Source: Tetradesmus obliquus
Taxonomy: Eukaryota; Chlorophyta; Chlorophyceae; Sphaeropleales; Scenedesmaceae
NCBI GenBank assembly: GCA_030272155.1
Contig: CP126197.1
Span: 4,332,001-4,396,000, forward strand
Direction of reading: 5' to 3'
Length of the DNA: 64,000 bases
The translations under genes were made by a program, and so were the position numbers. Under the pieces are notes generated by a model. The model searched no databases and had not been told where the DNA came from. It worked only from the letters and a program-made list of their open reading frames with translations. Each line of letters opens with the position of its first letter. Position 1 is the stretch's first letter. Shown piece by piece: positions 387-64,000 of this stretch.

Positions 387-1962
387 AGTTTCGGGTGGAG
401 ACTGATGATGACATCGATGCAACGATGATGATGGTCAACGGCCGCGTCTCACCCCGCCACGTGAGCGCCAGCATACTGAGCCATCCTAGAATGAGGTCGG
501 CTGTCCTGCATCGCCCTGCCAATTGTGCTGTGCCTTTCTTCAATAAACTGCACACAACCATTCCAGCAGGGGGACATGTTTGTACGGGTGCTCGCAGCAG
601 CGCATTGTCAAAACCTTGCTCCATCACTTTGACCAAACAAAAACCGTTCAACCTTGTGCATTTGCTGCAGGACGTGGTGCGTGAGCCGTACAGGCTGCGT
701 GTGCTCAACGGCTGCAATGCCAAGGCACTCATCCTGTACTTCAGGTGCGTTTGGCACAGGCATTGCTTTTGCTCCTGGCAGTTTGTTGTGCCTGCTTGTG
801 CCTGCTCTGCTGCAATGCAAAGGCACTTATCATGTACTTCAGGTGAGCAAGCTCCGTGTTGAAGCTATGACCCAATAGATGCGCTGCTGCTTGGAGGTGT
901 GCATGGTCCTCTTTGCTCATTGTGACTCAGTGGTTGCAGAATGTCATCATGTCATGACATGTTTAGGCACACTGCATACTGCAGTATTACTGCAGTGAAT
1001 GTTTTCAAATATACATGCATAGTTGTAAGAGACGCGGCCACCCAAAACAAATAAGATGACATATGCGTGTGTACTGCTGTGTGATTTGTGGTCCTCCCCT
1101 GCAGCACCACGCAGCCCACCGCAAACAACACTGTGGTTACTACATTCATCCTGCCCTTCTATGCCATCGGCATGTCTCACCCTACTTGACGCACCGAGCT
1201 TTCCCCTGTTGCATGTTTCTTGTCTCCTGCAGCACCACGCAGCCCGCCGCAAACAACACATGTGGTAACTGTACAGTGGTAACCACAGGCATCCTGCCCT
1301 TTTGTGCCATCGGCATGTCTCACCCTCCTTGACGCACCGAGCTTTCCCCTGTTTCATGTTTCTTGTCTTCTGCAGCACCACACAGCCCACCGCAAACAGC
1401 ACTGTGGTAACCACAGGCATCCTGCCCTTCTATGCCATCGGCAATGAGGGCGGCCTCTTCCCCTCAGTGGTGGGCCCTATCACCGACACTGGAGTGCTGA
1501 TGGGGCCGGCTGAGAGATATGACCTCATCATTGACTTCAGTGCTCTGAAAGCAGGTGCGATCTGCGGTGATGCTTGTGCTGCTCTGCCATCAGGGCTATC
1601 CCTGGATGTTGCTGCACATACTTTGCAACGGACCTGAATACTGTCATATGGCGCAGCTGTTGCCGGCAGGCCACAAGATGTCAAATGCACCACCACACAT
1701 GCCCACGCCCTACAGGCGCCCAGGTGTACATGCTCAACAAAGGCCCAGGAGGCCCCTATGATGGCAGCAATGCGGGGGACGGCCTGACAGTGCACACCGC
1801 ACAGGTGAGGTACATACAGCAGGTTGAATAACAATTTATTGTTAGAGCATATGCCTGGTATTTTCCCTTGCAATGTAGCCAAGGTCTTAGATACCAAGCA
1901 TGCTGGACGCACACGTGTGCACTGGCCGCCATGAGCTGCATGCCAGCTGATCCCTGCACTGG

Positions 1963-1995
<33 letters not shown>

Positions 1996-3850
1996 GCATG
2001 CATTTTTGCAGGTCATGAGGTTTGACGTGACAGCAGCTGCGCCGGCTATTGGACCGTTTGATGCTGCAAAGCGTGCTGCTCTCAACGCTGCCCTGAGAGC
2101 TGACTACAGCAAAGCCATCGTTGCATTGGCAGCTGCAACTGTGAAACGCCAGGTGTGTTGAGCCGCAGCACTTATAGCACACGACTCGATTGGCTGCAAG
2201 AAGCCTGCTGCTGCCCGTCAACCTACGGGCTGCATGCAAACCGTTGTGTCCTATATGCTCTTGACCAAGTTGTGTCCATGGCAGTTCACAGGCCTCAGCC
2301 TCTCAGTCGCTGCCAAACAGACTGCCAAGTCAACAAATGCATCAGGGCTTGAATGATCACCACAGCAAAGCACAGCACTGCTGCTGCATGCAATGGGTGC
2401 CTAGCTATGATAAAATTGCAACTACGGCTTCATCTGCTGTGTGCGCTTGCAGTTCACACTTCTGGAAGAGTTTGAAAGTGACCACCCGGTGGCTCAGTAC
2501 CTCGGCACTGTCGATGCCAGCAACGCCAATGCACAAAAAGGGCTGGAGCAACACTGGAGTGCCCCTGTGAGCTATTTTGAACGGCCAAAACATATTTATT
2601 TTCTTATGTTTGTTATGTTATATTATATTCTTATGCTTGTTATGTTACCTTCCTTACTCCAAAGCAAGTGTTGCTGCTGCAGCCTATCAAGAAGCACGCA
2701 CTGCTGCTAATAACTACACACACCTTCCTTGTTTTGCACAGCCGTGAACCTTGCATGTGGAGGCATTGCGCATCATGGAACTTTGCTGAATGTGGTGCCC
2801 GTGTGCTGCAGGTGTTGTTTTCGTCTGGCACCAATGCCACTCAGGAGTGGACCATGATCAACCTCACCCCTGATGCACACCCCATCCACATCCACGAAGT
2901 GTTCTTTGAGGTGCGTCTCTGGTCCGTCCTTAGGAGGTCAAGGATTCGAAGGCATGAGTTGCATGAAGGGTACGCCACTGGCGTGACACCGTACTTCACA
3001 TACATTCCCCAAACGAAACATAGTGCCGATCTACGTGACTGTGCGCAAGTCTCTGTGCCTAACCCTGCCTGTGTGCCAACCCCTAGGTGCTGGCGTCTAT
3101 CTGGTGCCTGTCCTGCAATGCTACGCCGCATCTGTTGATGCTAGCGGTTGTGGTGTGGCCAAGGCAGCAGCCGCGGCTGCAGCACAATGCTGCGGCCAAC
3201 TACATGTGCCGTCAGCATGCCACGTTTCTTTTTACCAGTCCCCATCACGTCAGCTCAACACAGCCATCGACTCTCCTGTCCTGGCGCAGTGACAGCCAAG
3301 CTGCGCCGCCGCACATCAATCATGATGCTGCCGCTGCATTGCAGCACCGTATGTTTCACCCTACTCCTGCATCACCCACGCTTCAAATGTGCTCCAGGTG
3401 GCTAGCTATGAGAAAGTAGACATCGATGAGCAAGGCCGTTTCAGATTCACGGGACAGCTGGGCCTGCCACCGAGCCTGCTGCAAGGGCAGATCATCGCCG
3501 CTGCATGTGATGCCGGTCAGTGCCGTGTGCGCAAGGACACTACGCTGATGCCTCCCGGCTATGCCACCACTGTGCGCATGAGGACCGCCAACAGGGCCGG
3601 CCTGTTTGTGTGGCACTGGTGAGACGCTGCACGAAGAATAGAGTTTAAGGTTGTCTGTGTCTGCCTGTAAATTTGCTGTTGTGGCTGTCTGCCTGCCTGC
3701 AAGGAAGGTGGGCATGTCTGTGTGTCTCCTAGTGCACAAGCATGTGTTTGTGGCACGGCACATGTGTCTGTGCAGCCTGCACTTCTGTGCTCAAGATGTA
3801 CAACACAGTTGAATGTGCCGTTCCTGTATGCCGGCCGGGTGACTGATATG

Positions 3851-3899
<49 letters not shown>

Positions 3900-5188: not shown

Positions 5189-5193
5189 TGTAA
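5189..5193 (+). terminator. Candidate TGTAA poly(A) signal, oxidase
   Basis: TGTAA is the usual chlorophycean polyadenylation signal. This copy is about 1.17 kb after the oxidase stop, at the end of the G/T-rich flank. Confidence 0.4.
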
Positions 5194-5626: not shown

Positions 5627-5631
5627 TTACA
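5627..5631 (-). terminator. Candidate TGTAA poly(A) signal, WDR27
   Basis: Minus-strand TGTAA about 265 nt after the WDR27 stop codon. Confidence 0.45.
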
Positions 5632-6161: not shown

Positions 6162-9100
6162 TGGCAGCAGCACATGCAGTGAAGATGAGAGGCATGCGGT
6201 GCACTATATGTGGGAGACCAGCTACGCATAGCCACCTACCACTCTGCCCTGACACTGCTGGCTTTCTCAGCATCCGCAACCCAACACCCAGCACCACACG
6301 CTGCAACAACTAATGTGCAAGTGCTGCGGTTACACCACAAACGCCGCACCTGGCTGTTCTTGTGTCCAGTGAAGCTCCTCACGCAAGACCCGCTGCGCAC
6401 ATCCCACAGCTTGACCACCTACACCAAGGTGCAAGTGCTGTGTGGTCAGTGTAGCAGATCCCTCACCTGGGAGTTTTTGTGTCCCGTGAAGCTCCTCACG
6501 CAAGACCCGCTGCGCACATCCCACAGCTTGATAACGCCATCAGGTGCAGATGACGCAAACAGCTCATGGATCTCCCGAGGGTGGCTCACAAAGGGCGAGG
6601 CTGAGGGCTGCACCAGCCGCTGCACTGGCCTGGCATGTGCATCTGGGATGCTGCAGGCCACCTGCGTTGCACAAGCAGGCACGGCATGCTAGTAATTTGA
6701 CAAGATGCCGCTGTGTTGCAAGAGGTGTCGTGACTGGTGTCAAGTCAGCTGCAGCTCCAAGGCTGATGCCGCCCTAAGATAGCTCATACCACTGTTGGTG
6801 CTGCTATCAGCCGCCGCAGCAGCAGCAACAGCAGCAGCCCACCTGCATTGTGGCAGCATCCACCAGCTGTATGCTGCGGTTGCTGCACGCCAGCAGCAGC
6901 AGCGTGGACAGGAAGCTGTTTGCTGCTGCGACGTCTGTGATGGCCTGGCAGCTGCTGGCATAACTGCCGGCCAGACTGTAGCTGCCGCTGGCCTTCAGGT
7001 GTGAGATGTCATCCTCTGCTGTAGCCTCTGGCAGCTTGTATCTGCGGGCATGCACCACATAAAGCAGCAGCATTCACAGATGCATCAGTATTGTCACGAG
7101 CCCCTCAACAAGCAGCAAACAGCAGCCGCCTGCAACTGAATGCATCTGTTCAAGTCATGTTCCACCTTGCGTCCTGCTTGCAGGCTTGCGTTCTGGCTTG
7201 GCTCCCAGCAGCACGTGCCAGCACCACCCTACCTATACAGGTGAAGCTTGCTGCCTGTCGCCAGCAGCACAAACTGGTCCACGTAAAAGAATTGAGCAGC
7301 AGTAACCTCAGACAGGAAGCCCTGTGCTGCGGTGCTGCTGCCGCTGCTGCCATTGCCGCTGCTCCGGCGCACAGTGCCGCCGCCGCTGCTACTGCTTGCC
7401 CCCCTGCTGCTGCTTGACCTGCCGAGCGCAGGTGTTGCGGCAGGTCGGCTGATGCCGCTGCTGCTGCTTGACCTGCTGATGCCGCTAGCCGCCGCCGCCT
7501 GCTGCTGATGCTGCTCTGCAGCAAAGGTGATGACTGCGGAGGGGTTGGAGCAATTCCAGAGCTTGGCAGTCCTGCAGATGAGGGCATGCAACAACAGCAA
7601 GCTATCAGAACAGCAGTGTTGACGCAGCTCCAGGTGTATCGATGGGTGGAGTCCCTAAATGCCAAGTGCTCAAACTGACTGCTTCCCCAAACAAAACGCT
7701 TACACAACCCCAAGCATCACAACTTATGTAATGTCATCGACTAGGGTTCACACCTGTCTGCTGATGCGGTCAGCAGCAGCTCTCCGCTGTGGCTCCAGCA
7801 GCATGAAACATACTAGGGTCACAACCCCACTACTGTCCAGTCCAAAAAATGTATTTACTTGCCCAGCCAGATGCGCACGCAAATCCTTATGCACAGCCAG
7901 TCAAACTTTGACCAGCCGTCAGCGTACCTGTCTGCTGATGCGGTGAGCAGCAGCTCGCCGCTGTGGCTCCAGCTGGCAGCGCTGACCGGCCCGCCATGGC
8001 CCACAAAGGTGGTGCCAGCGCCCGAATGCCTCGCCAGCGGCAGCCACAGGCAGCGCGCAGTCTTGTCGGCAGCGGCAGTGAGCAGCCTGCAGCCGTCACC
8101 TGCAGGCAGTTCAGCAGGACAAGGAGTGCCAGCAAATGCACTAAGTGAGCCGCTGCACGCCTCCAGTCCACGTGGCCTGGCACAACCCAGCACTTCAACA
8201 CCACATTCGAGCCCACTATGTTGCATCGCACTTCATCCCCCTCACCCGCAATCGCCAGCCGCAATATGCCGCCGTTGTGCACAGCCTGGCCACCCGCCAG
8301 GCTCTGCTCTGCCTGCAGCTGCCACTGCCCAGGAGCAGCAGCATCCAGCGGGTACTGCCGCTGGCCAGACAGCTGCTGTGCCAGCAGCTGCGGCACCTTG
8401 CTGGCACTGGGACCGCCGACTTTCACAAGAGCTGGCTTGGCCTGTCGTGAAGGCGACACAGGAACGCGGCGGCAACATGTCAATATGTGTTTGCGTGCTT
8501 TGTTGTCTTCTGTGCTGTGGCATGGCAGCGCTGGTCACGCGACAGTTGGATTGGAGGTGCGAGCTGCTTGCGCACACTGTCCATGCATAGCATGCAGGGG
8601 CGCCAATGACAAACGCAGACAATCCATATTTGTTGTATACATTTAAATACTCTGCAAAGTCTGCTGCCTCCAATGGATGCTGAACCCGGACCCCCAACAT
8701 GCACACACCTGCCCCAGCTTGACCTTTGGCTGCACAAAGCCGTAGCCGCTGCTCTTGATCTGCCTGTGGAAGGTCACAGGCTTGTCCGGCAAAGGCTTCT
8801 TGGGTTTGGGTTTAGGAGATGCTGGAGCCCTGCTAGCACCAAGCTTTCCGGCAACCCTTGATGCTGCTGCTGCTGCTGGTGGTGGTGGCTGAGCTTTGTT
8901 GTCAGCTTGCCACGTAGCCCGCTGCCTGCCTGGCTCACTGGCAACATCTGCGGGTGTCAAGCCAGGAGCTGCTGCTGCTGCTGTTGCTGAGATGGTGCAA
9001 CCACTGCTGGTGCCTTTGCTGCCATTTCTAGGCAACGATGACCCAGATTGGGCACTGCTACTGGGCCTGCTGCTACTACCTGGTTTGCTGCTGCTGCTGC

Positions 9101-12393: not shown

Positions 12394-15300
12394 ATGCAAA
12401 TGCTTAACTGTTGCCATGGCGCTCAGCGTTGCGCCAGTAGGCAGTCGCAGCATGCTCATGTCGCTTCGTCTGTCAACAGCAGCCACCGTGCCCTCCGGCT
12501 TCAGCGGCCTGCAGCACCCAACAGCAGTCGGAGAGCTGCAGTTAAGGTAACAATAGCTGACTGCGTGCTTGCTGGTAGCTACCAGCTCAGTACGTGACCC
12601 CTACTGCTGTGCCTCACTGCTGCAGGCAGCAGCTGCCACATTGCACCCTGGCCCAGACAAGGTGAGCTGCAGTGGCTCAGCAAACCCTCAGCAGCAAGCT
12701 GGTGCGAATGAACGAAAACATTGACCAGCAATACATAGCTGTTGGCTGTCTGCCAAGCTGTGTTGGTCGGGCATTCTTTTCAACTGCTTCTCGTTGTGCA
12801 CTGCGCACATGTGTCCTGCAGGACTACGACGTGTATGTTGCAGAGAAGCAGCCGCTTCCAGCAGGCGAGGAGAAGCACGTGATTTCTGTCTTCGTGGCAG
12901 ATGAGGCTGGTCTCATCAACCGCGTGGCTGGAGTGTTTGCCAGGCGAGGTGCGTGCAGCAGCAGGGCTGCAGCAGGCGCAAGTGCTACTACGGCGGTTGG
13001 ACAGTGGCAGCTGTGCAGCAGCTGCAGCAGCATTGCCGCCAGCAGGCAGTGCATATGGACAGCATGTTCATTGCAGCGTTTTCATCCAGAAAGCTGTGAG
13101 CCCGAGTGATGTCTGAACTTTTGGCAGGATTGACGTCAGCGTCCCAGTGGAGTCAGCAGGACAGTGAAGTTGCGCAGCAGCAGCGGTAGCAGCAGCAGCA
13201 GCAGCAGTGCATGCTGGGCAGCTGCGGACAGGTTTCACAGCAGCAGTTGCCGGAACATCACGCGCAATGGAAGTTACCTGCACACGCAGCAGTGCATGGT
13301 TGTGACCACAGTCAGCATTGCTGATTCATTGCAGCTTGCTGTGTTGATTGCTGATTCCTGCAGGCTCGAACATTGACAGCTTGGCTGTCGGCCTCAACAA
13401 TGACAGAGCGCTGTTCACCATTGTCGTGAATGGCACCACGCAGACAGTGGTGGGTGGCAGTGTCGGTGCTCAGATGAGCTAGTCTAGCCCCACCAGCAGC
13501 ACAGAGCTACAGCTCACAGCAGCAGGAGACTCGATTGATGCTTGCGCAGTGTTAGTATATGCACACAACGGCAGATGAGCAATTGAGAGGATTATCTCAG
13601 TACCAGAGGCTGATGCCGCGTCAACCCCTGCATAACATTCAAGTGTCTGTTACGCTGTAACGCTGTTACGTGTGCAGTCAAACCTTGTGAAGCAGCTGGG
13701 CAAGCTGGTGAAAGTGCGCTATGTGGAGGACATCACAAAGTCAAAGCGCGTGGGTGAGTGGCGCGGACGCATACATACCGCCAAAAATGGAATTCTTGCA
13801 GGGCTGCAGCATTCCAGGCACAGGATGTGACGCTGGAAATCAGCACCAGCCAGTGGTGTGACAGCAGCATCTGGTATGGAAGCCAGCGGCTGGTGCAGCA
13901 TCAGCAGCAGCTTGCAGGCGAACGCCGCGATTCTTGTCAGCTGCACAGCCGCCTCTGAGACTGAGGGCGGCAGCAGCAGCAGCAGCAGCAGCAGAGACCG
14001 ACAAGTGTCAATTCCAGGAGCTGCACTTGGTTCGGCGCGCTTTGTTCCGCGCCAGCTGCGTACCAACACGCCGACTACATGTCTTTGCAGCTGTCTGTGA
14101 TCATAACATGCTGTGTACATTCATGTCCAAGGTGCTCACTCACTTTGCAAATGTATGTGTATTGCTTGCAGAGCGCGAGCTGATGCTCATCAAGCTGCGT
14201 GCCCCGGCTGGCCCAGCACGCACTGAGGTGCTGCAGCTGGCAGAGATTTTCCGCGCGCGTGTGGTGGACGTGAGCGAGCGCGGCATCACGCTGTGCGTGT
14301 CAGGAGACCCCGGCAAGGTGCAGCGCAGGGTTTGCTTTTGTTACTGTTTGTGGTTTTGTTGATCACTTATAAATAGCACGTGGACGTGAGCGAGCGCGGC
14401 ATCACGCTGTGCGTATCGGGGCACCTGCGGCAGGTGCGGTGGTGCACAGGCAGCGTGACGTGAGCCCCAAAGTCTACAGGCACATCGTCTGGTGACACAG
14501 GAGTGGTTTACCAGAAGTGTTCATCAGCAGCCTCCTTACCTCCTTGCTGCTGCTGCTTCCGGTGTTGCAGACCGTGGCCATGCAGAACGTGATGACCAAG
14601 TTTGGCGTCATGGAGGTCTGCCGCACCGGGCGCATCAGCCTCAAGCGCGGAGAGGCACTGCTGGAGCAGGTCAAGACGCCCACGGAGCGCCCCGCACACC
14701 GCGAGCGCAAGACCGAGTGAGTGGTGATGTGTGTATGCAGAAAGCGTGCGTGTGTTGGCTACCGGCATGCAGGCAGATATGGTTTTGGGTTTCCCAACCT
14801 AAAAAAATTGGCGCAGCTCGCCGGCCTTGCTCCATCATGCGTGTCTTTCGCCAGACTCATGCATAGATACGCCACGCTGCCCACTCGCTGCATTTTTTGC
14901 TCTTCGCCGCCGCCTTTCCAGCCTTTGTTTCATCATGATGACATATGCATAACACTTCTCCCTGCAGCTCGCTGCCGGTGCCTGTCTCGCTGGAGTCCCG
15001 CGAGGCTGACGTGTACATGGTGGAGAAGGATGACCTGTCGGGGCCCTGGGAGGTGACCAACGTGCTGGCGGCACCGCAGCAGTACGAGAACGACCGCGGC
15101 GAGGCGCAGAGCGGGGAGTTCCAGGCACACACGCTGCAGATCCTGGTGGCAGACGTGCCCGGCGTGCTGCAGCAGGTAGGTGTGAGAAGGTGTTCTGGTG
15201 TTGCTGCTAGCGTGTTGGGGGCTGCGCTGCAGATCCTGGTGGCAGACGTGCCCGGCGTGCTGCAGCAGGTGCGGTTTCAGAGATAGCTTTTGGTGTCGCT

Positions 15301-17260
15301 GTGGTGTTGCTGTGGTGTGGTTGTGGTGTGGTTGACAGGCGCACATGCTGCAGATCCTGGTGGCAGACGTGCCTGGCGTGCTGCCGCAGGTGCGGGGTGA
15401 CTGCATGGCATTTGTATGTTGCTTTGGTGTTGCTTGCAGCAGGGGCGCTGCAGCAGGCGGGAAGAGTCTGGGAACAGGCACAGCCTGCAGGTTTCCAGGC
15501 AAGGGTTGTTGGCGTCCGTGCTTTTTCACTGAGTGTCTGTCCCGCCTGGACAGACACCCAGGCATTCAGCCTTGCACCCACGTCCACAGCTTGCTGAGCT
15601 TCTCTGCTTCTGTTTTTGCTCTCCCTCTGTTGCTGCTGCTGCTGCTGCTGCCGCCCAAGCGCAGGTGACGCAGGTGTTTGCGCGCCGCGGCTACAACGTG
15701 CAGAGCCTTGCTGTGGGCCCCAGTGAGACGCCCGGTGACTCCCGCATCACCATGGTGGTGCCCGGGACACGCCAGAGCGTGGACAAGGTCATCAAGCAGG
15801 TACGGCATGTGTGTTGATCAAAGGTCTGAAGGTTCAGTGTTGAGTGAATTGTCGGTGCATGGCAATGTTGCCGCATCACCATGGTGGTGCCCGGGACATG
15901 CCAGAGCGTGGACAAGGTCATCAAACAGGTGCGTGTGACTGCTGTCATGCCACTGTCACGTGTCTTCCCACCTCGCTGGGCAAGCTGACAGGAACTGGTC
16001 GCTGGGTCACGGGTGGGTCACGCGTGGGAAGAAAAGCCATCTTGGAGTTGCTGAATGGCAGGTAGCCAAACTGTTGTACCTGTCACTAGGCTGGCAGGTA
16101 GCCAAAGTGTTGTACTTGTCACTAGGCTGGCAGGTAGCCAAACTGTTATATTGTCACTAGGCTGGCACAGCATCTGCTACTGGGCATGGCCTTATTGTTT
16201 GTTTCCCGTACTGGTGCTGCTGCCGCCCCTCAGGTGAAGAAGCTGGTGTATGTGAAGGACGTGGAGGACATCACTGCAGTGCCATACGTGGCCCGCGAGC
16301 TGATGCTCATCAAGGTGGGAATCACCTTTTGTATTGCTGTCATGCACCTAATTAAAAGCTTGTACTTGGGCTTGCACTTTGGTTCTGTGTGTTTGTGCGC
16401 GCTCGCGAGCTGATGCTCATCAAGGTAGGCTGGCGCTTGCTTGGCATGAAGCTGGTTGGATAAGGCAGCTGCACTGGAGCCTGTGCTTGCATGTTTGTGC
16501 ATGTGCTTATGTGTGTTTGTTTGGGGCCAACCAACAAGGTGAGCAGCCCACATGGCTGGGCTTACCTCCTGCTTCTGCTGCTGCTGCTGCTGCTGCTGCA
16601 GGTGCGCTGCACTGCCAGCCAGCGTGGTGAGCTGCGCGACCTGGTGCAGATCTTCAGGCTGGGTGTGATTGACGTGGCACACACCACCATGACGCTGGAG
16701 GTGCAGGGCCGCGAGGACAAGATGAGCGCCATCGCAGACCTGCTGGAGCCGTATGGTGAGCTGTTGTTTGACCAGAGTTTGACTTGTGTCTTTGACCAGT
16801 TTTCAGGCTGGGCGTGATTGATGTGGCGCACACCACCATGACGCTGGAGGTGCAGGGCCGCGAGGACAAGATGAGCGCGATCGCAGACCTGCTGGAGCCG
16901 TACGGTGAGGAGCTGTTGTTTGACTGTTGTTTGACCGATGTTTGACCAGGGTGTTGGACCGATGTGTCTAAAAAGGCGTCCAGAGAGCGCCGTGGGAAGT
17001 GAGAGATTGTGCCCTTGATGTTTCTTCATGCTGTCAGCAGGCTGCACACTCGGTTCGCAGACCGATATGTACTTAGCACAGCACAGCTCAGATGCCACAG
17101 TTCCACGTATAGTCAGCTCTGCTGAAACTTTGCTCTGCCTGCTGTCTCTGCTGCAGGTGTGCTCGAAATCGCACGCACCGGGCGCATCGCGCTCACGCGC
17201 GAGTCAGGCGTGGACACAAAGTACTTGGAGACGATGCGCAGCAGCACGCGCATCTTCTGA
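12394..17260 (+). CDS. Acetolactate synthase small (regulatory) subunit
   Basis: The exons are 12394-12546, 12626-12661, 12822-12948, 13364-13449, 13678-13753, 14172-14317, 14571-14716, 14968-15175, 15665-15799, 16234-16314, 16602-16755 and 17157-17260, in frame throughout (483 residues, TGA). An Arg/Ser/Ala-rich N-terminus of about 50 residues suits a plastid transit peptide. There are two copies of the ACT plus C-terminal unit, as in plant subunits. Each has the FARRG(S/Y)N motif, an RELMLIK helix, an FR..VVDV-type strand and an [10 protein letters not shown]-type end. The protein activates the catalytic subunit and gives valine/leucine feedback control in branched-chain amino acid synthesis in the plastid (family knowledge). 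ATG 12394 is the first in frame; ATG 12400 is possible. Five introns hold copies of the preceding exon end. Confidence 0.95.
14377..14433 (+). repeat. Copied exon end plus donor (ALS subunit)
   Basis: Copy of 14260-14317, the end of the exon that codes [14 protein letters not shown], followed by GTGCGG at 14434. The last ~20 nt have diverged. Confidence 0.85.
15225..15389 (+). repeat. Two extra copies of an exon end plus donor (ALS subunit)
   Basis: Copies at 15225-15268 and 15336-15389 repeat the end of the exon finishing at 15175 ([14 protein letters not shown]). Each is followed by GTGCGG. The second is preceded by an AG (15337-15338), so 15339-15389 could splice as a 51-nt in-frame exon. 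Confidence 0.9.
15871..15928 (+). repeat. Copied exon end plus donor (ALS subunit)
   Basis: Copy of the last ~58 nt of the exon ending at 15799 ([19 protein letters not shown]), nearly identical, with a GT donor at 15929. Confidence 0.9.
16055..16163 (+). repeat. 35-nt minisatellite, three units
   Basis: Three tandem units of about 35 nt, each starting GGCAGGTAGCCAAA, in the intron before the exon at 16234. Every unit carries a CAGGTAG string that resembles a splice donor. Confidence 0.9.
16402..16424 (+). repeat. Copied exon end plus donor (ALS subunit)
   Basis: Copy of the exon end at 16314 (RELMLIK), with a donor at 16425 (GTAGGC). Confidence 0.8.
16572..16600 (+). repeat. CTG tract ending in a 3' splice site
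   Basis: CTG run leading directly into CAG, the acceptor of the ALS-subunit exon at 16602. Confidence 0.85.
16802..16904 (+). repeat. 103-nt copied exon end plus donor (ALS subunit)
   Basis: Nearly exact copy of 16653-16755, only a few mismatches by eye, with a GT donor at 16905. It is the longest single copy seen and would read [16 protein letters not shown] and onward without a stop. Confidence 0.95.
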
Positions 17261-46003: not shown

Positions 46004-47088
46004 CCACGGAGTTCAACTACCACGACGAGCAGCTGTGGCAGAGCATGACGCAGCTGTTCCGGGAGTTCAGCATGAAGGCCATGGGCATCCGGGCATCAGG
46101 AGCAGCAGCAGTCAACCTGTGCCACCTGGCTGCAGGTGAGCTGCTGAATGTGTACGGCCATACCAGTACCAGTGGTTGGGATGCAAACAGGTCAAGCAGC
46201 ACAGGACGCCAAGATTACACAGGGTTGTGTGCGTGCCATGTCTTTGGATGGTTTGGCGGACAGCAAATGCATGTAGGCGATGCCTTGAATGCTGCCACTC
46301 CCACATGCCGACAGTTGGAGCCTTGGCTCCATACACAGTAAGTGCGCTGCGCACTCTGTGGCCTGCCGTGACAAATTCACCGCAGGCGATAGTTTAATCA
46401 CTCCCTGTCATAACTCAGTTACTGCATCAAGCACTCATGATGCTGCTACCTCGCTGCCTGCAGGCCAGATACACCTGGTAGTCAGTACAAGCTGAAGCCA
46501 CATGATCTGCATACGGTCTTATAATTTAGATTGGTGCTGCTGCGCGCAGGCCAGATTGACGCATACTATCAGTACATGCTGAAGCCGTACGATGTAGCAG
46601 CTGGCATTGTCATCTTGGAGGAGGCTGGCGGGCGTGTCACGACAGCGGATGGTTCGGCCTACTCTGTGTTTGACCGCTCGCTGCTGGCAACAAACGATGC
46701 GCTGTACGAGCAGGTGTGCACATTGGGCAGCATGCACGATGCGTGTGCTGTGTGCGCTTGCTGTGTGTCATACGGTGCATCTGAGAAGTGACTGAACAAG
46801 CTGTGGATCAGATGCTGCTAGGGCAGGTTCGTACTATGACACGACATTCGTGTAGTGCCTGCTGGTTGCGCTCAGCTTGCTGTAGGTGCAGCCCATGCAC
46901 AAATGATGAGCGTCATCCAAAACTGATTGTACTGCTGCTGCCGCGGTCGTGTTGCTGCGCTGCTGCAAGTGCAGGTGCTGCAGGTTGTAGAAGGCCCAAC
47001 CAGCAGAGCCATGCAGCAAGGCGTGCAGTTAGGGCCTGCAAACGTGCCCAAGGCATACCGTGTGCGGTCAGGCAGGCAGCTGGAATGA
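43668..47088 (+). CDS. IMPL1: Inositol monophosphatase-like phosphatase, plastid type
   Basis: The exons are 43668-43823, 44148-44223, 44503-44614, 45028-45146, 45597-45712, 46003-46135, 46550-46713 and 46975-47088, 329 residues, in frame. Similarity to plant IMPL1 is strong: QVVMEALDKPRNI, ILGEEGG (about 98), YLWCVDPVDGTCNFAH (about 113), GAAAVNLCHLAAG, LKPYDVAAGIVILEEAGG and FDRSLLATN. The Mg2+ and catalytic residues (Glu of GEE, Asp/Asp/Thr of DPVDGT, Asp of YDVAAG) are present. Deviations from the usual motifs are DGTT to DGTC and PWD to PYD. The N-terminus is Arg/Ser-rich and suits a transit peptide. The enzyme removes phosphate from inositol phosphate or related sugar phosphates in the plastid (family knowledge). 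Three introns hold copies of neighbouring exon ends or starts. Confidence 0.95.
44715..44884 (+). repeat. Two extra copies of an exon end plus donor (IMPL1)
   Basis: Copies at 44715-44749 and 44847-44884 of the exon end 44577-44614 (GGMTGNDDSDYLW). The first has lost the donor GT (GGCGAG). The second keeps GTGAGG at 44885. Confidence 0.9.
45803..45835 (+). repeat. Copied exon end plus donor (IMPL1)
   Basis: Copy of 45681-45712 (SSIKKLEDAII) with a few changes and its own GTGAGC donor at 45836. Confidence 0.85.
45968..45999 (+). repeat. CTG tract at a 3' splice site
   Basis: CTG run leading into CCAG, the acceptor of the IMPL1 exon at 46003. Confidence 0.8.
46454..46506 (+). repeat. Copied acceptor plus exon start (IMPL1)
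   Basis: Diverged copy of 46542-46594 (CAG acceptor and the exon coding GQIDAYYQYMLKP). It lies upstream of the real acceptor. Confidence 0.75.
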
Positions 47089-49770: not shown

Positions 49771-51400
49771 AAGACAATTGTTGCAACAGGCTGTCACACC
49801 AGCTGCTGCGGCAGGAGTAGCCCACGTGTGACATTTCCTCTTTGGAGTATGTTACTTGGTTGATTCGGTTTGATTGCATACATACCCATCGCATACATCA
49901 CTCCATCAGCAGCAGCAGCTAGTGCCGCAATTGGTAGGGACAGTGGAGCATAATCTGTTTTCGTAACAACAGATACATCCTGACCTTGCAAGTGTCAATT
50001 GAGCGCTCGCTCACTCAGTGTCATCATCATCATCATGTTACCATTGAAGCCATAGCAACGCTCACTCAGTGTGTTGTCCAGACCAGCTATGGCGCCTGGA
50101 AACATTGTTTAACAATATGGAAAACGTTGTTACACTGCTGCATGCCTTCCCATTAAGACCTGCCCCTGGCCTTGTTACACCGTGCCAGCATCCAGTGTAC
50201 AGCAGCTCGCAAGCCTGCATGTACTGCAAAAAAATGCGATCGTCACCAGCAGGCAAGGACCCACACATACATACTACGTATGTGCAGATAGTATCTGCAG
50301 ACGTGCACATACCACACGCACATGCAGATCAGACGAGTTGCCAGAAGCTCGGGTGACCAAGCATCAAGATCACCTCTGCATACAAGCAGCAATTGTGTGC
50401 ACGTCAGTGGCACCACATGCAGCAGCAAACAATTGCATGTGCTGTAATCACGGCATGCAGCTTGAGACTCCCTTTTATTGCTGCCCAACGCAGCACCTAC
50501 AAGGTGTCGAGCAAGCAAATGAATGCTTCCGCCAAGTCGTATGGCAGACCAGCAAGGAATATTGAAGTTATCAGACAGTGCTGGAGCTGCCTCACCCAAT
50601 GCAGGTCATGCAAAACCCAATTCACGGTCCCCTGCTACACACTGCATACTTCCCAAGCACGCTGGCTGCACAGATTTCTCACGTGTTCCTGCACGATGTT
50701 CCTGGACTCAGCAACTGTCATAGATCCGGCAATGAACTCCGCTGTACCTCCTCCTCTCACATATCGCTGCTGCTCCTGCTGTGCCAGCCACTCCGGGAGC
50801 CGCGTAACCAACGTCCGCACCGCCGCAGGTGCAGCTGCAAGAGCTCCGTCCCCAGCCCTGTACGCCCCTTTCCTCTGCAGAACTGTACTTCCCATTGCTG
50901 CTCCTGCTGTGCCACTGGCTGGCAGCAGCGCAACAGACGTCAGCACCGCCGCAGAGCAACTGGACCAGCCTCATCCCCAGCCCTATACTTCCTGGTCCTC
51001 TTCAAGCTTCACTTCCCATTACTGCTCCTGCTGCGTTAGCCAATCCGGCAGCAGCGCAACAGACGTCAGCACTGCCGCAGGTGCAACAGCAAGAGCTCCG
51101 TCTCCAGCCCTGTACTCCCCTTCCCTCTGCAAAACTGCACATTCCATTACTGCTCCTGCTGTGCCAGCCACTCCGGCAGCAGCGCAACCGACGTCAGCAC
51201 TGCCGCAGGTGCAACTGCACCAGCCTCAACCCCAGCCCTGTACTCCCCTTTCCTCTCCAAAACACACTTTCAATTACTGCCCCTGCTGCGCCAGCCACTC
51301 CGGCAGCAGCGCAACAGATGTCAGCACCGCCGCAGGAGCAACAGCAAGAGCTCCGTCCTCAGCCCTGTACTCCCCTTTCCTCTCCAATGCCCACTTTCCA
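49771..51400. other. Convergent 3' flanks of methyltransferase and HAD gene
   Basis: No independent gene was seen. The + strand is A/C-rich from about 50180, fitting a 1.2-kb HAD 3' UTR that contains the tandem last-exon array. Minus-strand TGTAA motifs at 50174-50178 and 50130-50134 are poly(A) candidates. The methyltransferase end is not placed. Confidence 0.4.
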
Positions 51401-51530
51401 TTACTGCTCCTGCTGTGCCAGCCATTCTGGCAGCAGCGCAACAGACGTCAGCACTGCCGCAGGTGCAACAGCCCCAGCCTCATCCCCAGCCCTGTACTTC
51501 CCGGTCCTCACTAGAATGCCCCTGCAGCCA
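50771..51530 (-). repeat. Six tandem copies of the HAD gene's terminal coding segment
   Basis: Units of about 124-128 nt start (+ strand) near 50771, 50898, 51022, 51151, 51278 and 51404. On the minus strand each reads the residues KYRAGDEAG..APAAVLTSVALLPEWLAQQEQ or a variant, and most keep TAA in place. The unit at 51404 is the one joined to the rest of the gene. The others lie beyond its stop. Confidence 0.9.
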
Positions 51531-51798
51531 GCATCCTGTGCACCCCCAACATCTCCTACCACATCATCACCCACCATAACCACCTGCTCAGGTTTTAGGC
51601 CCAGGGATTGCGCTGCCAAGTGGAAAACAGACGAGGCAGGCTTGCCGAGTACTACTGCTGAGGTGCCGGTGGCGTATTCAAGTGCGCTGGTGAAGGGTCC
51701 GACATCGAGTGAGAGCCCGTCTGGGGCCATGTAGTACCTGAGGGCAGGCAGGCAGTTCAGCAGGTTTGGTTGGCAGGCATGTGATCAGGTTCTGTTGG

Positions 51799-51846
<48 letters not shown>

Positions 51847-52477
51847 TGAGCATCAGGCAGGTAAGCAGGTTGGTAGGCAGGCACGCAGGCGGGCAGGTGA
51901 GTGAGCATGCAGGCATGCAGGCATGCAGGCATCAACACCAACACAACAACAGCCATGACCTGGAGAGTCACAAAATATAACAAGGTTTGTGAACGTACAC
52001 AGCATAAGCAGGGCGGCAGGCTCACCGTGACTTGCCCAGCGACAGCAGCTGCGGTGTCGGCTGCTGCATCATCAGGCGGAAGGCCCGGTTGAGCGTCTCA
52101 TAGCTCCTGCAGCAGCAACCAGTGACACACACTTGCGCAACCACTATTAGCAGCGCCCGGTTGTACTCTGTGACTAGCAACAGCGCACAGGCACACATGC
52201 TTGATACCAACACCGCTGAAGCTGCACAGCATGTCTGCTGCTGTGCAATGCAATCACTTGCCGCAGCGCTGATCCTCATTTGACGGGCAGCAATCCCAGA
52301 GCAGAACTATGTTGCGACCTGCTGCTTGCATATCCTACTCACCAGTCAGCGCCCATGTCGCCTATTACAACAGCAGCAGCGCCAGACTCCGCACCATCAG
52401 GCAGCAGCGGGCAGCCCTCAAAGTCCGGCAGCAGCGCAGGAGCCACAAACAGCGCCACAGGCCCTGCAGCACAGCAG

Positions 52478-57705: not shown

Positions 57706-60357
57706 ATGGCAGTGACGGGCGTGTCGCTTGCCACAGCACTGGGCATCAACGGTGGAGTGTGCTGCGCTTTCCTCATCATCTTCAGCATTCTGAGGATCAA
57801 GCCCTTCACGCGCAAGTTCTATGCGCCAAAGAGGTGAGCTTGCGCATGCTCCATGCATGCATGCGTGGCCCATCACGCTCTGTGTATGCATGCTTGCTTG
57901 TGTGCAAGTCGCAACAGCAACCGCCGCGCAGCAGCAGCAAATACAACAGCCACCTCCAGCAGCTGCTGCTTGCGCAGTTGATGCGCAACATGACTGATGC
58001 AGGCAAGGACATTGACCCTAACATCTTTCACACTATTCATACTGCACGGTCAACCATCTCTGTCATCACAGGTTTGACCCTGATGTCAGGCCCAAGCCCA
58101 AGAAGCTTCCAAATGGGCTGTTCTCGTGGATCGCGCCCACACTATTCTATGATGAGGGCGAGATGCTGCGGACTGCAGGCATGGACGTGGTGGTCATGGT
58201 GCGCCTGCTGTCATACGGTGAGCAGTGAGTGATGGCCACATCTGCATGTCTGCATGTCTGTGTTGTTGCGTGCAGTTCTGTACAGCATGTGGCTATTGTG
58301 GGTGTCATGAGGGCTTGCAGGACACGGAAGTTATGGTATGTATTATGCCGTTGGTTTGCCCAGTATGCTGACATTTGGAAGCAATGGATGGCAGAAGCAT
58401 TTGCTTGTGTTGCACTTGCCATCACTCAGGTGCCTCTGTTTGTCCTGCAAGAGGGGCAGTGCATCTCCTGCAAGCATACTATGCCCAAAACAGCAGCAGA
58501 GTGCGTTAGTGTCTTGCATGAATATTTATTCATGCGCATTGTGTGATATCTCATATGCATCGTGTTTAATACATCTCTTTCCGCATGTTGCAAGCATCGT
58601 GCAAAAATCAATTGGCTGTAAGACTGTGCTGTCATGCTGTTGGGCAGCTGGCATGCTGGATGCACACACAGCAGCATCTGCAGTGCCCTGACTGCCTTGC
58701 GTGTGTGCTGTTCTGTTGCCTGACTGCGCCCTGCAGGCTGGGTGCTGTTTGCGTTCTGCACCTTCTGGTGCTGTGCGCTGCTGATGCCCATCAACGGCAC
58801 TGCAGGCTTCCTGGTAAGCAGGATGAGTCAGCAGCAGCAGCAGCAGCAGCAGCGGCCAGCGCTATTATCACATATCTGGGGCCGACTTAATCAATTGCAA
58901 CAGGAGCGCAACCTGGGCAGCATGCAGCAGCCAGGGACCCCCACAGCGCATCAATCAATCTTGCACACTCTGTCATTGTTGTCGCCAGCTCCTGCAAGCA
59001 TGTTGTGGAAGTGGGGTCAAGTTAGCCGGTCATCCCCTGAACACTGTCCTGCAGGCGCGCCCGCAGAATTTTAGCAATCCTGCTCCTACACACATGGTCA
59101 CTTCTCAGTCCGTTCCTTGCATTTGCACTTCTTGCACACTATCCTGCAGGCCAGGCTGCCGCCCACCCCTGCCACAAGCGACCTGGACTTGCTCAGCACC
59201 AGCAATGTGCCGCAGGGCAGCCCCCGCATGTGGGCACACCTCATCTCCGCATATGTGGTGTCACTGGTGGCCCTGGGGGTGAGAGCGCACAGGCAGAATG
59301 TAAACCAAAACATTGTCAAATCATACGAACAGCAGCTGTGGGATGTGGTGCAGCTGCGCAGATGTAAGCATGTGTGTGGTAGTGTGGGTCGACTGAGGCC
59401 ACAGCGCTGCAGCAGCAGTTGCCAGCCGGTCCCTGGCTGTGTGCAGAAGGACTGTGGCAGATGTTGGCTGCTGGTAGGCTCCCTTGCCGCGCTCTTGCTC
59501 AGTAGCACAGCTGCATGGTTGCACCCGCCGTTTTCATGCGTGCTACCTGCAGCCAGTGTGCTTGCACTTGTCCTTTTAAGTCAGTGCGTTGAACCGCCGT
59601 GGAGCGCATGTCCCTGCATCCTACCTTCTCATCTGGTTGGTGCCAGGACCCATATGTAACTTTCCTCTCTCATTGCTTGCGCTCTGTTGTTTTGCAGCTG
59701 CTGGTGGGCTTCTCCAACGATGTGAGCCGCCTGCGTGCGCGCTTCATGTCTACGCTGCCGCGTGGTGGCACCAGCCACAGCGTGCTCATCACAGACATCC
59801 CCTGCGTGGATGGCCTGGGCGCAAAGGAGCCCTCCAAGAGCGGTGCAGCAACAGAGCCAGCCGGCTACAAGGAGGAGAGGCTGGTGAGGGAGGCTGTGTT
59901 CTGTTGGGGTACTGCTTTCATTGCGTGTGGTGTTGGCTGTGGTGCGCTGGGTGCAAAGGAGCCCTCCAAGAGTGGAGCAGCAACGGAGCCAGCCGGCTAC
60001 AAGGAGGAGCGGCTGGTGAGGGAGCGTCATTTAAATCTTTATATCGGTATGTTAGTCATGGTATATGGGATGACATACCAACTTAAATCAAAAAACTTGC
60101 AAGGCTGACCTGCTGTGCAGTGACCTCAAGCTGATGCTCTGATTGACAGGCAGAAAGGCGGCCAGTCAGACGGCCGAAAACCTGATGGGGTTTTTGGCCG
60201 CCTGACTGTCCGTCTTTCTGCCTGTCAATCAGAGCATCAGCTTCGGGTCACTGTACAGCAAGTCCGCCTTGCAAGTTTGCAGACTTTTTCCAGATTAGTG
60301 TCCGCCCATTTTTGGCGGGGAGTGGCACCTCGGCCAGCATGCTGACCGGGCAGCTTC

Positions 60358-60389
<32 letters not shown>

Positions 60390-62967
60390 AGGATGCCGAG
60401 CTTGGCGGCAAGGGGTCAGTGTCAGGCCACCACGGCTACACTGCCATTGATGATGATGTGCTGTGCCCCTGGGCAGACGCACGCAGCCAGCTGCGCAGCG
60501 GCAACGCTGAGGTGAGCTGCTGGTGTGCTTTGTGGCAAGTGCATGTGGCCAGCTGCGTGGGTAGATGTGCGGGCGGGCTGCGGTGCTTGCGGCTTATGCA
60601 GCCAGCTGCAGAGCGGCAACGCGGAGGTGAGCTGCTGCTGCTGAGGTGCTTGTCTCGTGCAGATGCGCTGCTGCTGCTGCTGCTGCTGCTGCATGTGCTG
60701 GCTGCCAGCTGGTGGAAGGGGTTGGCGTGGGTGCAATGGTGGCAGACATCTGCGCACCGGCAATTCCAAGGTGAGCAGCATGCACGCTACCCTTACACCA
60801 TCACATCGTCCCAGATCATATCATACACCTTGCACAATGTAACACACCTCTGCTATCCCCTACCCAACAGTTGTATCATCCTAAAGTGACATGCGGTGTG
60901 GTGCTTGTCCCATCGACACGTGCTGCAGGGCTGGTGCATGCGCTGGCTAGCTGCTGTTGGAGGGGGTGGCGTTGTTGTCACTGCAACCTCGGGCTTGAAG
61001 ATGCTGCTCACAGGCAGCAATCCTGCCAGTAGCAGTGGTGGCACACTCATGCAGGTCTGACAGCATGCGTTGCTGATGATGCTGTTGCTGCCGACGCATC
61101 ATGCATCACCTTACCCTGCTGTGCAATCACGCTGCTGAGCGCTCTCTGTGCTGCACTCTGTGCTCCGCACTGCAGAGCATGGTGCGCAACGAGATGGCCA
61201 CCACATATGGGGAGCCCAAGGTGGCTGCGGTCAACGTGGTGTACAACACGGCCAAGCTGGACCCGCTGCTGGCCAAGTACGACAAGAGCAAGAGCCAGCT
61301 GGAGGACATCACGGATGACTACATCGGCAAGCTGCGCCGCGGCAAGGAGATCAAGAAGCGCAAGGAGGTGGGTCCAGGTTTTGCAGCGGTTGGGCGGTGT
61401 TGGGATCAACATGCCGTTTCAGACCTGCCTGATCATCGGCTATGACGGCAAGCTGCGCCGTGGCAAGGAGATCAAGAAGCGCAAGGAGGTGTGGCAGTGT
61501 TGTAGAGTTTTGGGAACTGGGGCAGCAGCAGCAGTTGGAGGCATGGTTAGAAGCAGAAGGGCAGTGCATATTTTGTCAGTGACAATGCAGCAGGCACGTG
61601 TAGGCAAAGAGATCAAGAAGCGCAAGGAGGTGCGGCAGGGTCCGATGAACGACAGCAGCAGCAGCAGCAGCTGCGGTCTGGTGGTGTCGAGACTAGGAGC
61701 CGCAAGCAGAGGGGCAGCGTTAAGTGTAGGGTCAGCAGCAGCGGGCCGAGGTTGTGTCGAGGCGTGAAGAGATCTGCGTATTCAGCAAGCGTATGTAGGT
61801 ACTGTCGAGACTGGCGTAATACACGCATCATGTGCTTCTACAAACATCACACGCTTGCCGCAGGTGTCGCTGCTGCCTGCCATCACCCCGAAGTGGGCCA
61901 AGGAGCGCTACAATGTGGGCACGAAGGCCGTCAAGGTGGATGCGCTGGAGTACCTGCCGCAGGAGATGGAGCACCTGCTGGGTGAGATGAAGACAGAGAG
62001 GGAGGCCATCAAGGAGGCACACCTGCCTGCTGCCTTCGTGACGTTCAAGTGAGTGGCTGGGGCGGCTGGCAGTGCACCAGCGTGTCTGGTGTACGCGTGA
62101 ACTTTAGGTAGGTAATGTTATCAAGGATGCACGCCTGCCTGCTGCCTCGTGACAGTAAAGTGAGTGGCTCTGCCATCAACTGGAGCTCGACTGCGCTTGA
62201 GCGTGGACATGCCATTTGCTGGCTTCTCATGTCGCCTGTCTTCCTGTGCCCTTATGAATCCCTGCTATGCCCTGCCGTTTTGTTGTGCAGCGACCGTGCA
62301 TCTGCCAACGCCGCCGCCACCGGGCTGCAGTCCTACGACGAGACCGCGTGGCGCATCCAGCCCGCCCCCGACAGCGAGGAGATCATCTGGGGCAACCTGT
62401 CCATGCGCTACAAGCAGCGCGTGATGCGCAGCCTGGGCATGTGGGTGGTCTTCATCGCCATGCTGGTCTTCTACCTGCCGATCACTGCGGCGATTCAGAT
62501 GGTGGTCAACCTGCAGAATGCGAGCGCCATCCCCGGGCTCAACGTGATTGTGCGGCTGCCGTTCGTGACACAGGTGCTGCAGGGCATCCTGCCAGGTGAG
62601 GCTGGGTTTGGTGGTTGCTGATTCTTTGTTAGTCTGGATCCGCGATCTGTCCAATTGGGTGCTATACTTAGTTGGCTGCTGTACTGCATGACTTGCATTT
62701 TGAGGTGTGCAGCAGGTGCTGCAGGGCATCCTGCCCGGTGAGGCTGTGGGGTTGTTCGTTGGGTTGTGGGCTGCTCTGTTGTTGTGTGGTCAATGCTCTG
62801 CAAAGCTGCTGTGGGCTGGTTCACACATGTCATGCAACGAATTCAAAGCGTGCAGCAGGCTGGCCAAAAGGGACCGTGAAGCGCCTGTTGTTCACTGTCA
62901 GGATTCTTCACTGCCATTGCTGGCAGGCCACGGCACTGCTGTGACTGACGAGCGCTGCTGCCGCCGC

Positions 62968-63002
<35 letters not shown>

Positions 63003-64000
63003 AGGTCTGGTGCTCAAGATCTTCCTGATCCTGGTGCCGCCCATCCTCAAGGCCATGGCGCGCTTCGAGGGCAAGGTGTCACTCAGCGAGGTGGACTTCT
63101 CAGTCGGTGAGTCAAGAGTTGGAAGAGTGAGGCGTTACAGCAGTGGTGGCACAGGCCTGGCCAGCGACAGCTTGGCAGCAGCAGCAGCAGCAGGCAGCTG
63201 CAAGTCAGGGGCAAGGTGTCACTCAGCGAGGTGGACTTCTCAGTCGGTGAGTGGGGTTAGTGGGCAACAGTGGATGGGTTGGGCGTAGCTAGCAAAGGTC
63301 AGCATGCAGATTGCTTTGAGGGCAAGGTGTCACTCAGCGAGGTGGACTTCTCAGTCGGTGAGTGTGGGGGGTGAGGGCAGCCATGGACGTGCCGGCTGCA
63401 GTGAATAGCTGGTGTTGTTGGCGGTGGAGGTAGCAGCTATGTGGCAGCCTGGCAGCTGCAGGTCTGTACTACAGACTATTACTCGTAGTAGTACTCTGCT
63501 GACCTGCTATCGTTGCTTGCCATCTGCTGTGTTCCTGCAGTGGGCTGCTTTTTCACTTTCCAGGTCTATGCCGTGTTCATCTTCAACCACTGACCTGCTG
63601 CACATTATATCTCACCTCCTGCCGTCCGTTGCTGCCAATGTTCCATGTGAACTTTGTTCCTGCAGTGGGCCGCTTCTTCATCTTCCAGGTCTTCGCGGTC
63701 TTCATCTTCAACTTCCTGCTGGGAACTGTCACCAGCGACCTGCTCAGCGTGGTGAACAAGTTCCGCGAGATCGCGGACGAGCCCACCAAGCGCGTGCCGG
63801 AGCTGCTGGGCGTGGGCGCGGCACAGACCTCCTCCTTCTACATGTCATACATCCTCATCAACGTGAGTTGCGTCTTGCGTGCTTGTGCAAGAACTGGCTG
63901 ATTAGAGAGGAGGGTTGCGTGTGGGCCCTGGCACCATCTTGGTTGGTACGGTGACAGCTGGCTTATGGACAGCCGCAGCGCAGATCTGCGTGTTCTACAT
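57706..64000 (+). CDS. CSC1/OSCA-type calcium-permeable channel, 5' part
   Basis: The exons are 57706-57833, 58072-58217, 58737-58813, 59150-59278, 59698-59883, 60392-60511, 61176-61367, 61864-62048, 62291-62595, 63005-63106 and 63666-63862: 589 codons in frame, then off the right edge. An exon starting near 63984 is possible. The N-terminus holds three hydrophobic helices (GGVCCAFLIIFSIL, VLFAFCTFWCCALLMPI, WAHLISAYVVSLVAL). A long cytosolic RRM-like part follows (SVLITDIPCVDG, NVVYNTAKLDPLL, a charged EDITDDYIGKLRRGKEIKKRK helix). Then come helices WVVFIAMLVFYLPITAAIQM, VLKIFLILVPPIL and FFIFQVFAVFIFNFLL. This order is that of the DUF221/CSC1 family, mechanosensitive or osmosensitive cation channels in plants. 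Seven junctions carry copies in adjacent introns. Confidence 0.9.
59947..60015 (+). repeat. Copied exon end plus donor (CSC1-like)
   Basis: Nearly identical copy of 59815-59883 (GAKEPSKSGAATEPAGYKEE) with donor GTGAGG at 60016. Confidence 0.95.
60093..60278. mobile_element. Foldback (MITE-like) inverted repeat
   Basis: Arms 60093-60182 and 60189-60278 are inverted copies of each other with about nine mismatches in 90 by eye and a 6-nt loop. It is intronic in the CSC1-like gene. No flanking target-site duplication was obvious and there is no coding capacity. It could be a non-autonomous transposon remnant or a structured RNA element. Confidence 0.7.
60358..60390 (+). repeat. CTG tract ending in a 3' splice site
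   Basis: CTG run leading directly into CAG, the acceptor of the exon at 60392. Confidence 0.85.
60597..60626 (+). repeat. Copied exon end plus donor (CSC1-like)
   Basis: Copy of 60482-60511 (SQLRSGNAE) with donor GTGAGC at 60627. Confidence 0.85.
61446..61629 (+). repeat. Two extra copies of an exon end plus donor (CSC1-like)
   Basis: Copies at 61446-61488 and 61602-61629 of the exon end at 61367 (GKLRRGKEIKKRKE; the second shorter), with donors GTGTGG and GTGCGG. Confidence 0.9.
62119..62160 (+). repeat. Copied exon end plus donor region (CSC1-like)
   Basis: Diverged copy of 62006-62048 (IKEAHLPAAFVTF), with matching GTGAGTGGC after it. Confidence 0.8.
62712..62737 (+). repeat. Copied exon end plus donor (CSC1-like)
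   Basis: Copy of 62570-62595 (QVLQGILPG) with donor GTGAGG at 62738. Confidence 0.9.
63208..63357 (+). repeat. Two extra copies of an exon end plus donor (CSC1-like)
   Basis: Copies at 63208-63246 and 63316-63357 of 63064-63106 (EGKVSLSEVDFSVG), essentially identical, each followed by GTGAGT. Confidence 0.95.
63531..63591 (+). repeat. Copied acceptor plus exon start (CSC1-like)
   Basis: Diverged copy of 63656-63716 (CTGCAG acceptor and the exon coding GRFFIFQVFAVFIFN). It breaks at a TGA and lies upstream of the real acceptor. Confidence 0.85.

Follow-up and report, generated by a model that had tools for sequence, protein, structure and literature searches.

In tandem exon duplication and in mutually exclusive exons, copies of exon sequence lie in tandem a short distance apart. 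The introns of a 64,000-nt stretch of the green alga Tetradesmus obliquus (contig CP126197.1, positions 4,332,001 to 4,396,000; hereafter the window) hold a comparable arrangement, recurrent direct copies of the edges of the adjoining exons, but these are partial exons that miss one splice site. Among the described routes of intron change, intron gain by tandem duplication (PMC2891723), with a case in the potato RdRp gene (PMC4974935), comes close: coding sequence and splice motif are duplicated locally and one copy ends up intronic. There, however, a new intron is made, whereas here existing introns hold partial copies of exon edges, the flanks are mostly unrelated and the divergence is coding-like. 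New introns in Daphnia carry direct repeats from staggered double-strand breaks (PMC4202315) and share with the present case repeats common to intron and exon edge, an attribution to break repair and the growth of introns. The exon-edge repeats of Daphnia measure 4-12 bp, those here ~23-103 nt, and the passages of that report considered here describe neither a fixed step nor coding-like divergence. Introners (PMC9860276) also change introns en masse across a genome; unlike them, the copies reveal no shared mobile sequence in the CSC1-like gene, the only gene searched. Tandem-duplication intron gain and the Daphnia repeats are the nearest relatives found, and the titles and abstracts returned by searches of open PubMed Central contained no description of recurrent exon-edge copies in introns with coding-like divergence.

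The genome carries tandem duplications of a local kind, whose step is preferentially ~120 nt (commonly a single step, now and then roughly two) and which concentrate at coding edges. In most of the pairs at splice junctions the copies have little in common beyond coding sequence and splice signal, and their differences are chiefly synonymous. The fixed step, the boundary at the splice signal and the coding-like divergence are new relative to the first-pass annotation of the window, which had reported recurrent copying of splice junctions into introns. The material comprises the window, on the contig here called C7, and the 200 kb downstream of it, together 264 kb of joined sequence with 0 N bases, from a genome of 104.66 Mb in 17 contigs; a further 10 kb was taken from each of four other contigs (C1, C4, C12 and C15). 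Genes were modelled with our own unsupervised two-strand hidden-Markov gene finder, trained on the same 264 kb without RNA, which converged on the donor CAG/GTGAG and the acceptor TGCAG/G and returned 53 genes with 359 introns (minimum intron 95 nt). As checks on the models, Pfam domains were obtained for eight trimmed predictions, a cryptochrome-like prediction was aligned to plant CRY1 (1u3c) and a methionine-gamma-lyase-like prediction to 5dx5; in both alignments the exon ends discussed below are single in the solved homologue and positioned at the exon copy. The gene finder took copies as exons under a short minimum intron and some of them still after the minimum had been raised. The cryptochrome-like model, for example, wrongly took in three copies of DAHPFSYMID that have no counterpart in the homologue.

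Counting as strong a copy that scores at least 50 in the adjoining intron, 24 of the 271 exon ends and 24 of the 281 exon starts have one, i.e. 48 of the 552 junctions tested in the 264 kb. Block-shuffled introns gave copies at 0/271 ends and 0/281 starts, reverse-complemented introns 0 and 0, and the wrong-side intron of the same exon 5/237 and 3/237. Exon middles were copied in 1/117 and 1/134 cases, far more rarely than edges, in a control, proposed in the first-pass annotation, that is geometrically biased, as a ~120-nt step would place a mid-exon copy inside the exon, where it is selected out. The exon-edge copies are thus real and far above chance. Its count of about 16 donor and 4 acceptor junctions is matched by 16-17 donor-side and 3-4 acceptor-side sets in a self-alignment of the window. 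Five of the six genes it named as hosts hold up, all with Pfam support (a multicopper oxidase, a WD-repeat protein, the acetolactate synthase small subunit, an IMPL1-like inositol monophosphatase and a CSC1-like channel), while the sixth, a HAD-like hydrolase, has a coding-end array with no splice junction. Its description of the copies as direct, adjacent, recurrent, widely varied in divergence and retaining their splice signals is borne out as well, GT being intact in 25/26 donor copies and AG in 20/22 acceptor copies. Nor is the copying peculiar to the window: on the other contigs 8/53 donors and 4/53 acceptors have copies, with one copy on C1, none on C4, six on C12 and five on C15 (three of the four contigs positive), although all six on C12 sit in one CAG-rich model and are weaker evidence. 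At a lower cut (score 44 with the whole exon edge), 39 donor-side and 34 acceptor-side pairs were obtained over the 359 modelled introns, in 21 of the 51 multi-exon models. These 73 pairs divide into 48 junction-limited ones with 0-19 nt of intron homology (35 of them with 0-10 nt), seven with at least 20 nt of intron homology and 18 in which the repeat falls short of the modelled junction, the last two groups being left out of the junction-limited class.

The step between exon edge and copy is narrowly set. In 39 of the 48 junction-limited pairs, those with steps of 85-160 nt, it averages 119.9 nt (standard deviation (sd) 13.7), made up of an exon share of 46 nt (sd 16) and a spacer of 74 nt (sd 15). 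Exon share and spacer compensate for one another (r=-0.60); were they independent, the sd would be 21.6, and 0 of 5000 permutations were as narrow as observed. The remaining nine steps are 188, seven between 231 and 295, near two steps, and 372. Full tandem sets of exon plus intron have steps of 93-153 in 22/32 cases and the five noncoding full sets steps of 63, 100, 102, 114 and 129; satellite DNA at 133-142 kb in the joined sequence was excluded from this count. This region contains a satellite-like array (joined sequence 133867-136211) with repeats at 252 and 298 nt that are 95-98% identical over ~1.9 kb. The step is not a multiple of three, the remainders 0, 1 and 2 occurring in 8, 16 and 15 pairs.

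Among 117 local direct-repeat sets, 95 are exon-intron, 17 noncoding and 5 exonic, against a background in which 65% of the sequence is intron or intergenic and 29% is no farther than 60 nt from a modelled junction. Few exonic sets are to be expected, since selection should remove duplications inside exons; the scarcity of intron-only sets is not expected from selection and therefore favours a process that requires an exon. Splice junctions, which the first-pass annotation took as the target, do not hold up as the only one, since the same step occurs in the HAD coding-end array without a splice site and steps of 92-153 nt are also seen in 8 of the 17 noncoding sets. An exon has copies on either side in 14 cases, where permutation within genes predicts 5.8 (p=0.0003), an excess that may owe part to arrays, and both copies in one intron 9 times against 6.4 (p=0.14). 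In the methionine-gamma-lyase-like gene (joined sequence 103886-104282), the first 63 nt of one exon are copied on one side of it and the last 68 nt on the other, each copy with four synonymous and no nonsynonymous differences.

Homology between exon edge and copy usually stops at the splice signal. After extension it reaches no more than 11 nt beyond the splice site in 24/34 donor pairs and no more than 9 nt in 16/27 acceptor pairs, the same short range that is shown by unrelated introns sharing only the consensus. Even pairs with 50/50 or 44/44 identical bases have intron flanks without detectable similarity. In the 35 pairs with homology extending at most 10 nt past the splice site (599 codons), the proportions of synonymous (pS) and nonsynonymous (pN) differences are 0.242 and 0.043, a pN/pS of 0.18 (bootstrap 0.12-0.25), with one stop and six frameshifting gaps. 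The seven pairs with at least 20 nt of intron homology have a pS of 0.089, a pN of 0.064 and a pN/pS of 0.72 (Fisher p=0.008 against the junction-limited pairs); the ratio is 0.40 in the 18 pairs that do not reach the modelled junction, 0.26 over all 73, and up to 0.31 in the most diverged bin of the 48. If the copy had never been expressed and only the exon were constrained, a ratio of ~0.5 or more would be expected by our own estimate. Synonymous codon preference is equal in exon and copy (51 vs 61, p=0.23), which together with the ratio of 0.18 implies that both versions were expressed coding sequence for most of their divergence. This speaks against the view, taken over from the first-pass annotation, that the junction-limited copies derive from the present exon and later drifted. 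Nonsynonymous differences are AT-biased in the copy (46 vs 22, p=0.005), hence decay followed displacement. Their counts are overdispersed (p=0.002) and the synonymous ones slightly so (p=0.026), and the ages of decay therefore differ while the divergence of the sources is similar. Of the 48 copies, 15 show neither nonsynonymous changes nor frameshifts; in 22 there is a frameshift or the nonsynonymous changes number two or more. We read these figures as silent divergence accumulated during the expression of both versions; the displaced one would then have decayed, for lengths of time that differ.

Arrays extend the pattern. The HAD array (50768-51521, minus strand) has six ~127-nt copies of the coding end, 125-128 nt apart and running past the stop codon, so that copies 2-6 lie beyond the stop of copy 1; one gene model ends at that stop and an earlier one used copy 2. 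Two versions alternate, a DEAG-type in copies 1, 3 and 5 (with one replacement in copy 3) and a DGAL-type in copies 2, 4 and 6. Copies 2-4 keep an open frame and their stop codon; copy 5 is frameshifted, copy 6 has many replacements, and neither of these two has a stop codon. Copy 1 differs from copy 3 with a pS of 0.19 and a pN of 0.015, and from all the others with 0.27 and 0.070; the nine comparisons involving copy 5 or 6 have ratios of 0.31-0.93. A GGCA tetranucleotide repeat (51797-51931) lies beside this array. In a VTT-domain gene (joined sequence 168524-169100), five copies of one exon end follow at steps of ~124-129 nt, by eye in two synonymous versions and with recurring kinds of intron start. 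Alternation of this kind would be accounted for by one unequal exchange between two versions followed by amplification of the pair. The cryptochrome-like gene has a paralogue on C15, ~80% alike, with copies of its own that by eye are closer to each other than to those on C7. A 721-base piece of it (C15:1513940-1514660) holds three copies of the same exon end, of which the exon end and the first copy differ silently by eye, and its positions 1-64, compared with 138-201, are an upstream exon copy with an in-frame stop. Between the C7 and C15 exon ends there appear, by eye and in numbers too few to count, to be more silent changes on the expressed than on the intronic copies.

The reading we favour, at a probability of roughly 0.4, combines local duplication of ~120 nt at coding edges with recombination through which a diverged, expressed form of the exon end comes to lie next to the present one. 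That the second versions have a diverged source is something we infer from their silent differences. The source could be another allele of that exon end, present in a population that is highly diverse or has hybridised, and the joining could proceed by recombination, e.g. unequal exchange, or by break repair plus end joining. In the latter case a break in an exon would let the broken end copy ~120 nt from a homologue whose exons match and whose introns do not. Copying confined to the exon would allow the strand to re-anneal and leave nothing behind, while copying into the non-matching intron would prevent re-annealing, and end joining would then leave a second exon end. The extra copy lands in an intron or past a stop codon and is tolerated there; the outer version would be skipped as intron and then decay, and no function of the copies need be assumed. 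Such a break-repair route would explain the location at exon edges, the boundaries and the coding-like divergence, and the excess of exon-edge sets (95/117) would fit if the step requires exon homology.

Several observations weigh against this reading. The break-repair route leaves the ~120-nt step unexplained, and survival alone does not explain why as few as 17 of the 117 sets are noncoding. For a single species, ~0.24 of silent divergence would be extreme, and the source is inferred from one assembly. Moreover, intron flanks should still align at such divergence, yet residual similarity in the tandem register is seen in only 10/39 junction-limited pairs, against 2 expected with other introns as control (adopted in place of a shuffle control that overstated the similarity, with 22/56 pairs at p<0.05). 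Unless the flanks have some other origin, introns must therefore change far more quickly than silent sites do. No close second locus that could act as donor was found in this assembly for the four gene stretches searched. A paralogous donor finds no support in the same searches: the CSC1-like gene has no close second locus, the WD-repeat and acetolactate synthase stretches gave mostly short or repetitive hits among the matches listed, and the cryptochrome-like gene, the fourth, has the ~80% paralogue on C15 with copies of its own. With 128 silent differences spread over the 48 pairs, each pair has too few of them to demonstrate that there were two discrete source lineages, and the pairs are non-independent, arrays contributing several each. 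Finally, at least 10 nt of intron homology is found in 13/34 donor and 11/27 acceptor pairs against 3% and 7% of random intron pairs; this sizeable minority, which carries duplicated intron sequence, resembles simple tandem duplications and probably consists of them.

These last pairs lead to the alternative that survives best, in which ordinary local tandem duplications across exon edges were followed by neutral drift of the intronic copy. Full units recur at the same step, 22/32 exon-plus-intron sets at 93-153 and 4/5 noncoding sets at 100-129, and the intron homology just given, the residual flank similarity in 10/39 pairs and the clear decay of some copies all point the same way. A neutral copy, however, should not yield a pN/pS of 0.18 or an equal codon preference, and pairs identical over 50/50 and 44/44 bases without any flank similarity are impossible at the birth of a contiguous duplication. 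For the junction-limited class ordinary duplication is largely contradicted, and as an account of the whole it is possible but unlikely. We would put in the same unlikely range an extension of the favoured reading, according to which other expressed versions of the neighbouring exon edges are archived in introns and gene ends, the exon edges then being cassettes for exchange by recombination. Diverged alleles would be pasted ~120 nt away by an exon-only step of repair or exchange, as allelic introns no longer match, and the stored copies could come back into use by recombination.

It is also conceivable that selection filters the copies, which would serve as evolutionary backups and be promoted into the expressed position by unequal exchange or conversion. 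A promoted copy needs coding sequence plus splice signal, and these are the parts retained; donor copies match the originals in strength (median splice score 6.7 vs 6.5, with 5.6 vs 6.3 for acceptors), and HAD copies 2-4 are open with a stop codon while the farthest two are decayed. On the other hand, promotion by deletion would remove the pair, conversion at a rate that selection would notice should, as a matter of argument, wipe out the silent divergence of 0.24 as well, and in 22/48 copies there is a frameshift or more than one nonsynonymous change. We regard this account as rather doubtful.

Assembly chimeras of two diverged haplotypes or strains would account for divergence of the coding type, for homology ending at splice sites, for exons with copies on either side and for a step below short-read length. 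They are improbable given an assembly in 17 contigs whose 264 kb sampled here contain no N; five- and six-copy arrays and decayed copies (stops, frameshifts, AT-biased nonsynonymous differences) need time, and the same kind of array occurs in the C15 paralogue. The HAD and VTT arrays argue against assembly error and against a role in splicing alike. Such a role at the RNA level, be it as decoy splice sites, as points of recursive splicing or as alternative exons, is suggested by the intact signals in 25/26 and 20/22 copies; decoy sites and alternative exons had been considered in the first-pass annotation. The far end of the copies has no partner splice site above background (acceptors in 15% of 26 against 25% of random points, donors in 23% of 22 against 19%), and on this ground alternative or mutually exclusive exons find no support. 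In-frame retention was rejected since the step is not a multiple of three. Spacers of ~74 nt leave little room for an intron between copies, the HAD copies have no splice site at all and many copies have decayed; decoy or alternative exons are thus not upheld, and an RNA-level function seems very unlikely. Intron gain by tandem duplication of an AGGT segment fits the many exon ends that read AG/GT in the donor matrix, but that model makes the intron out of the duplicated exon segment, bounded by AG/GT on both sides. Here partial copies lie in longer introns and, among the 15 pairs inspected, acceptor-side copies open with the exon start and not every donor end is AG, so that the model can be set aside almost entirely. 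Copying of identical exon-only sequence by an RNA route was rejected by argument, as it would also diverge neutrally. An introner-like element was rejected for the CSC1-like gene: among the 40 of 156 candidates scored, the matches elsewhere are short repeats plus one 74% match of 63113-63193 on C9.

Copies of this kind let introns grow by a definable step and mislead gene finders. If the second versions do come from diverged alleles, a single haploid genome would store past allelic diversity in its introns, and these loci would be a natural test of repair between diverged homologues that match only in exons.

Within the window, the oxidase gene (plus strand) has an exon end with donor at 711-747 and its intron copy at 809-845 (set 711-845; step 98, 92% identity). 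At 1095-1443 its acceptor and exon start occur three times (~1099-1172, 1227-1300 and 1370-1443; steps 128 and 143), and homology continues through the intron part, i.e. this is a full tandem duplication. On the minus strand, the WD-repeat gene pairs an exon end with donor at 6461-6531 with a copy at 6344-6414 (set 6344-6531; step 117, 93%), and one at 7926-7973 with a copy at 7752-7799 (set 7752-7973; step 174, 96%). The acetolactate synthase small subunit gene (plus strand) contributes exon ends with donors at 14264-14321 (copy 14380-14437, step 116), 15742-15804 (copy 15871-15933, step 129, 95%) and 16291-16319 (copy 16401-16429, step 110), and a copy set at 15122-15434 consisting of 15122-15177, a member from ~15225 and 15336-15391. 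It also has a full tandem duplication of exon plus intron at 16653-16949 (step 149, 89%); a full tandem copy splits the gene in the models at 16817-16838, where one gene is more likely. In the IMPL1-like inositol monophosphatase gene (plus strand), an exon end with donor occurs three times at 44576-44935 (steps 135 and 135, the intron parts weakly homologous) and another is copied once at 45672-45909 (step 123), while the acceptor and exon start at 46539-46586 have a weak upstream copy at 46453-46499 (80%).

No Rfam family matched the window at the gathering threshold, and its commonest tandem repeats are trinucleotide runs of the CAG/CTG type. In the CSC1-like gene (plus strand), the two copies at 59815-60024 (59815-59892 and 59947-60024; step 132, 94%) are both read through by the model and give the same peptide in the modelled frame, their differences being silent, and either may supply the real donor. 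An exon end at 60483-60525 has a copy at 60598-60640 (step 115) and a weak third at 60742-60779, and the exon end with donor at 61325-61370 has copies at 61446-61491 and 61603-61641. The copy at 62120-62169 of the exon end with donor at 62008-62058 is decayed, with a one-base gap and four nonsynonymous changes; that of 62571-62617 lies at 62713-62761 (step 142). At 63062-63363 an exon end with GTGAGT occurs three times, nearly identical and each time with a different flank. The acceptor and exon start at 63652-63712 have an upstream copy at 63527-63587 (step 125), and an exon end with donor in the set at 63779-63890 has its copy 26-136 bases beyond the window end (step 247). A separate feature of this gene is the intron segment 60093-60278, a long hairpin or palindrome whose 186 bases align with their reverse complement at 88%.

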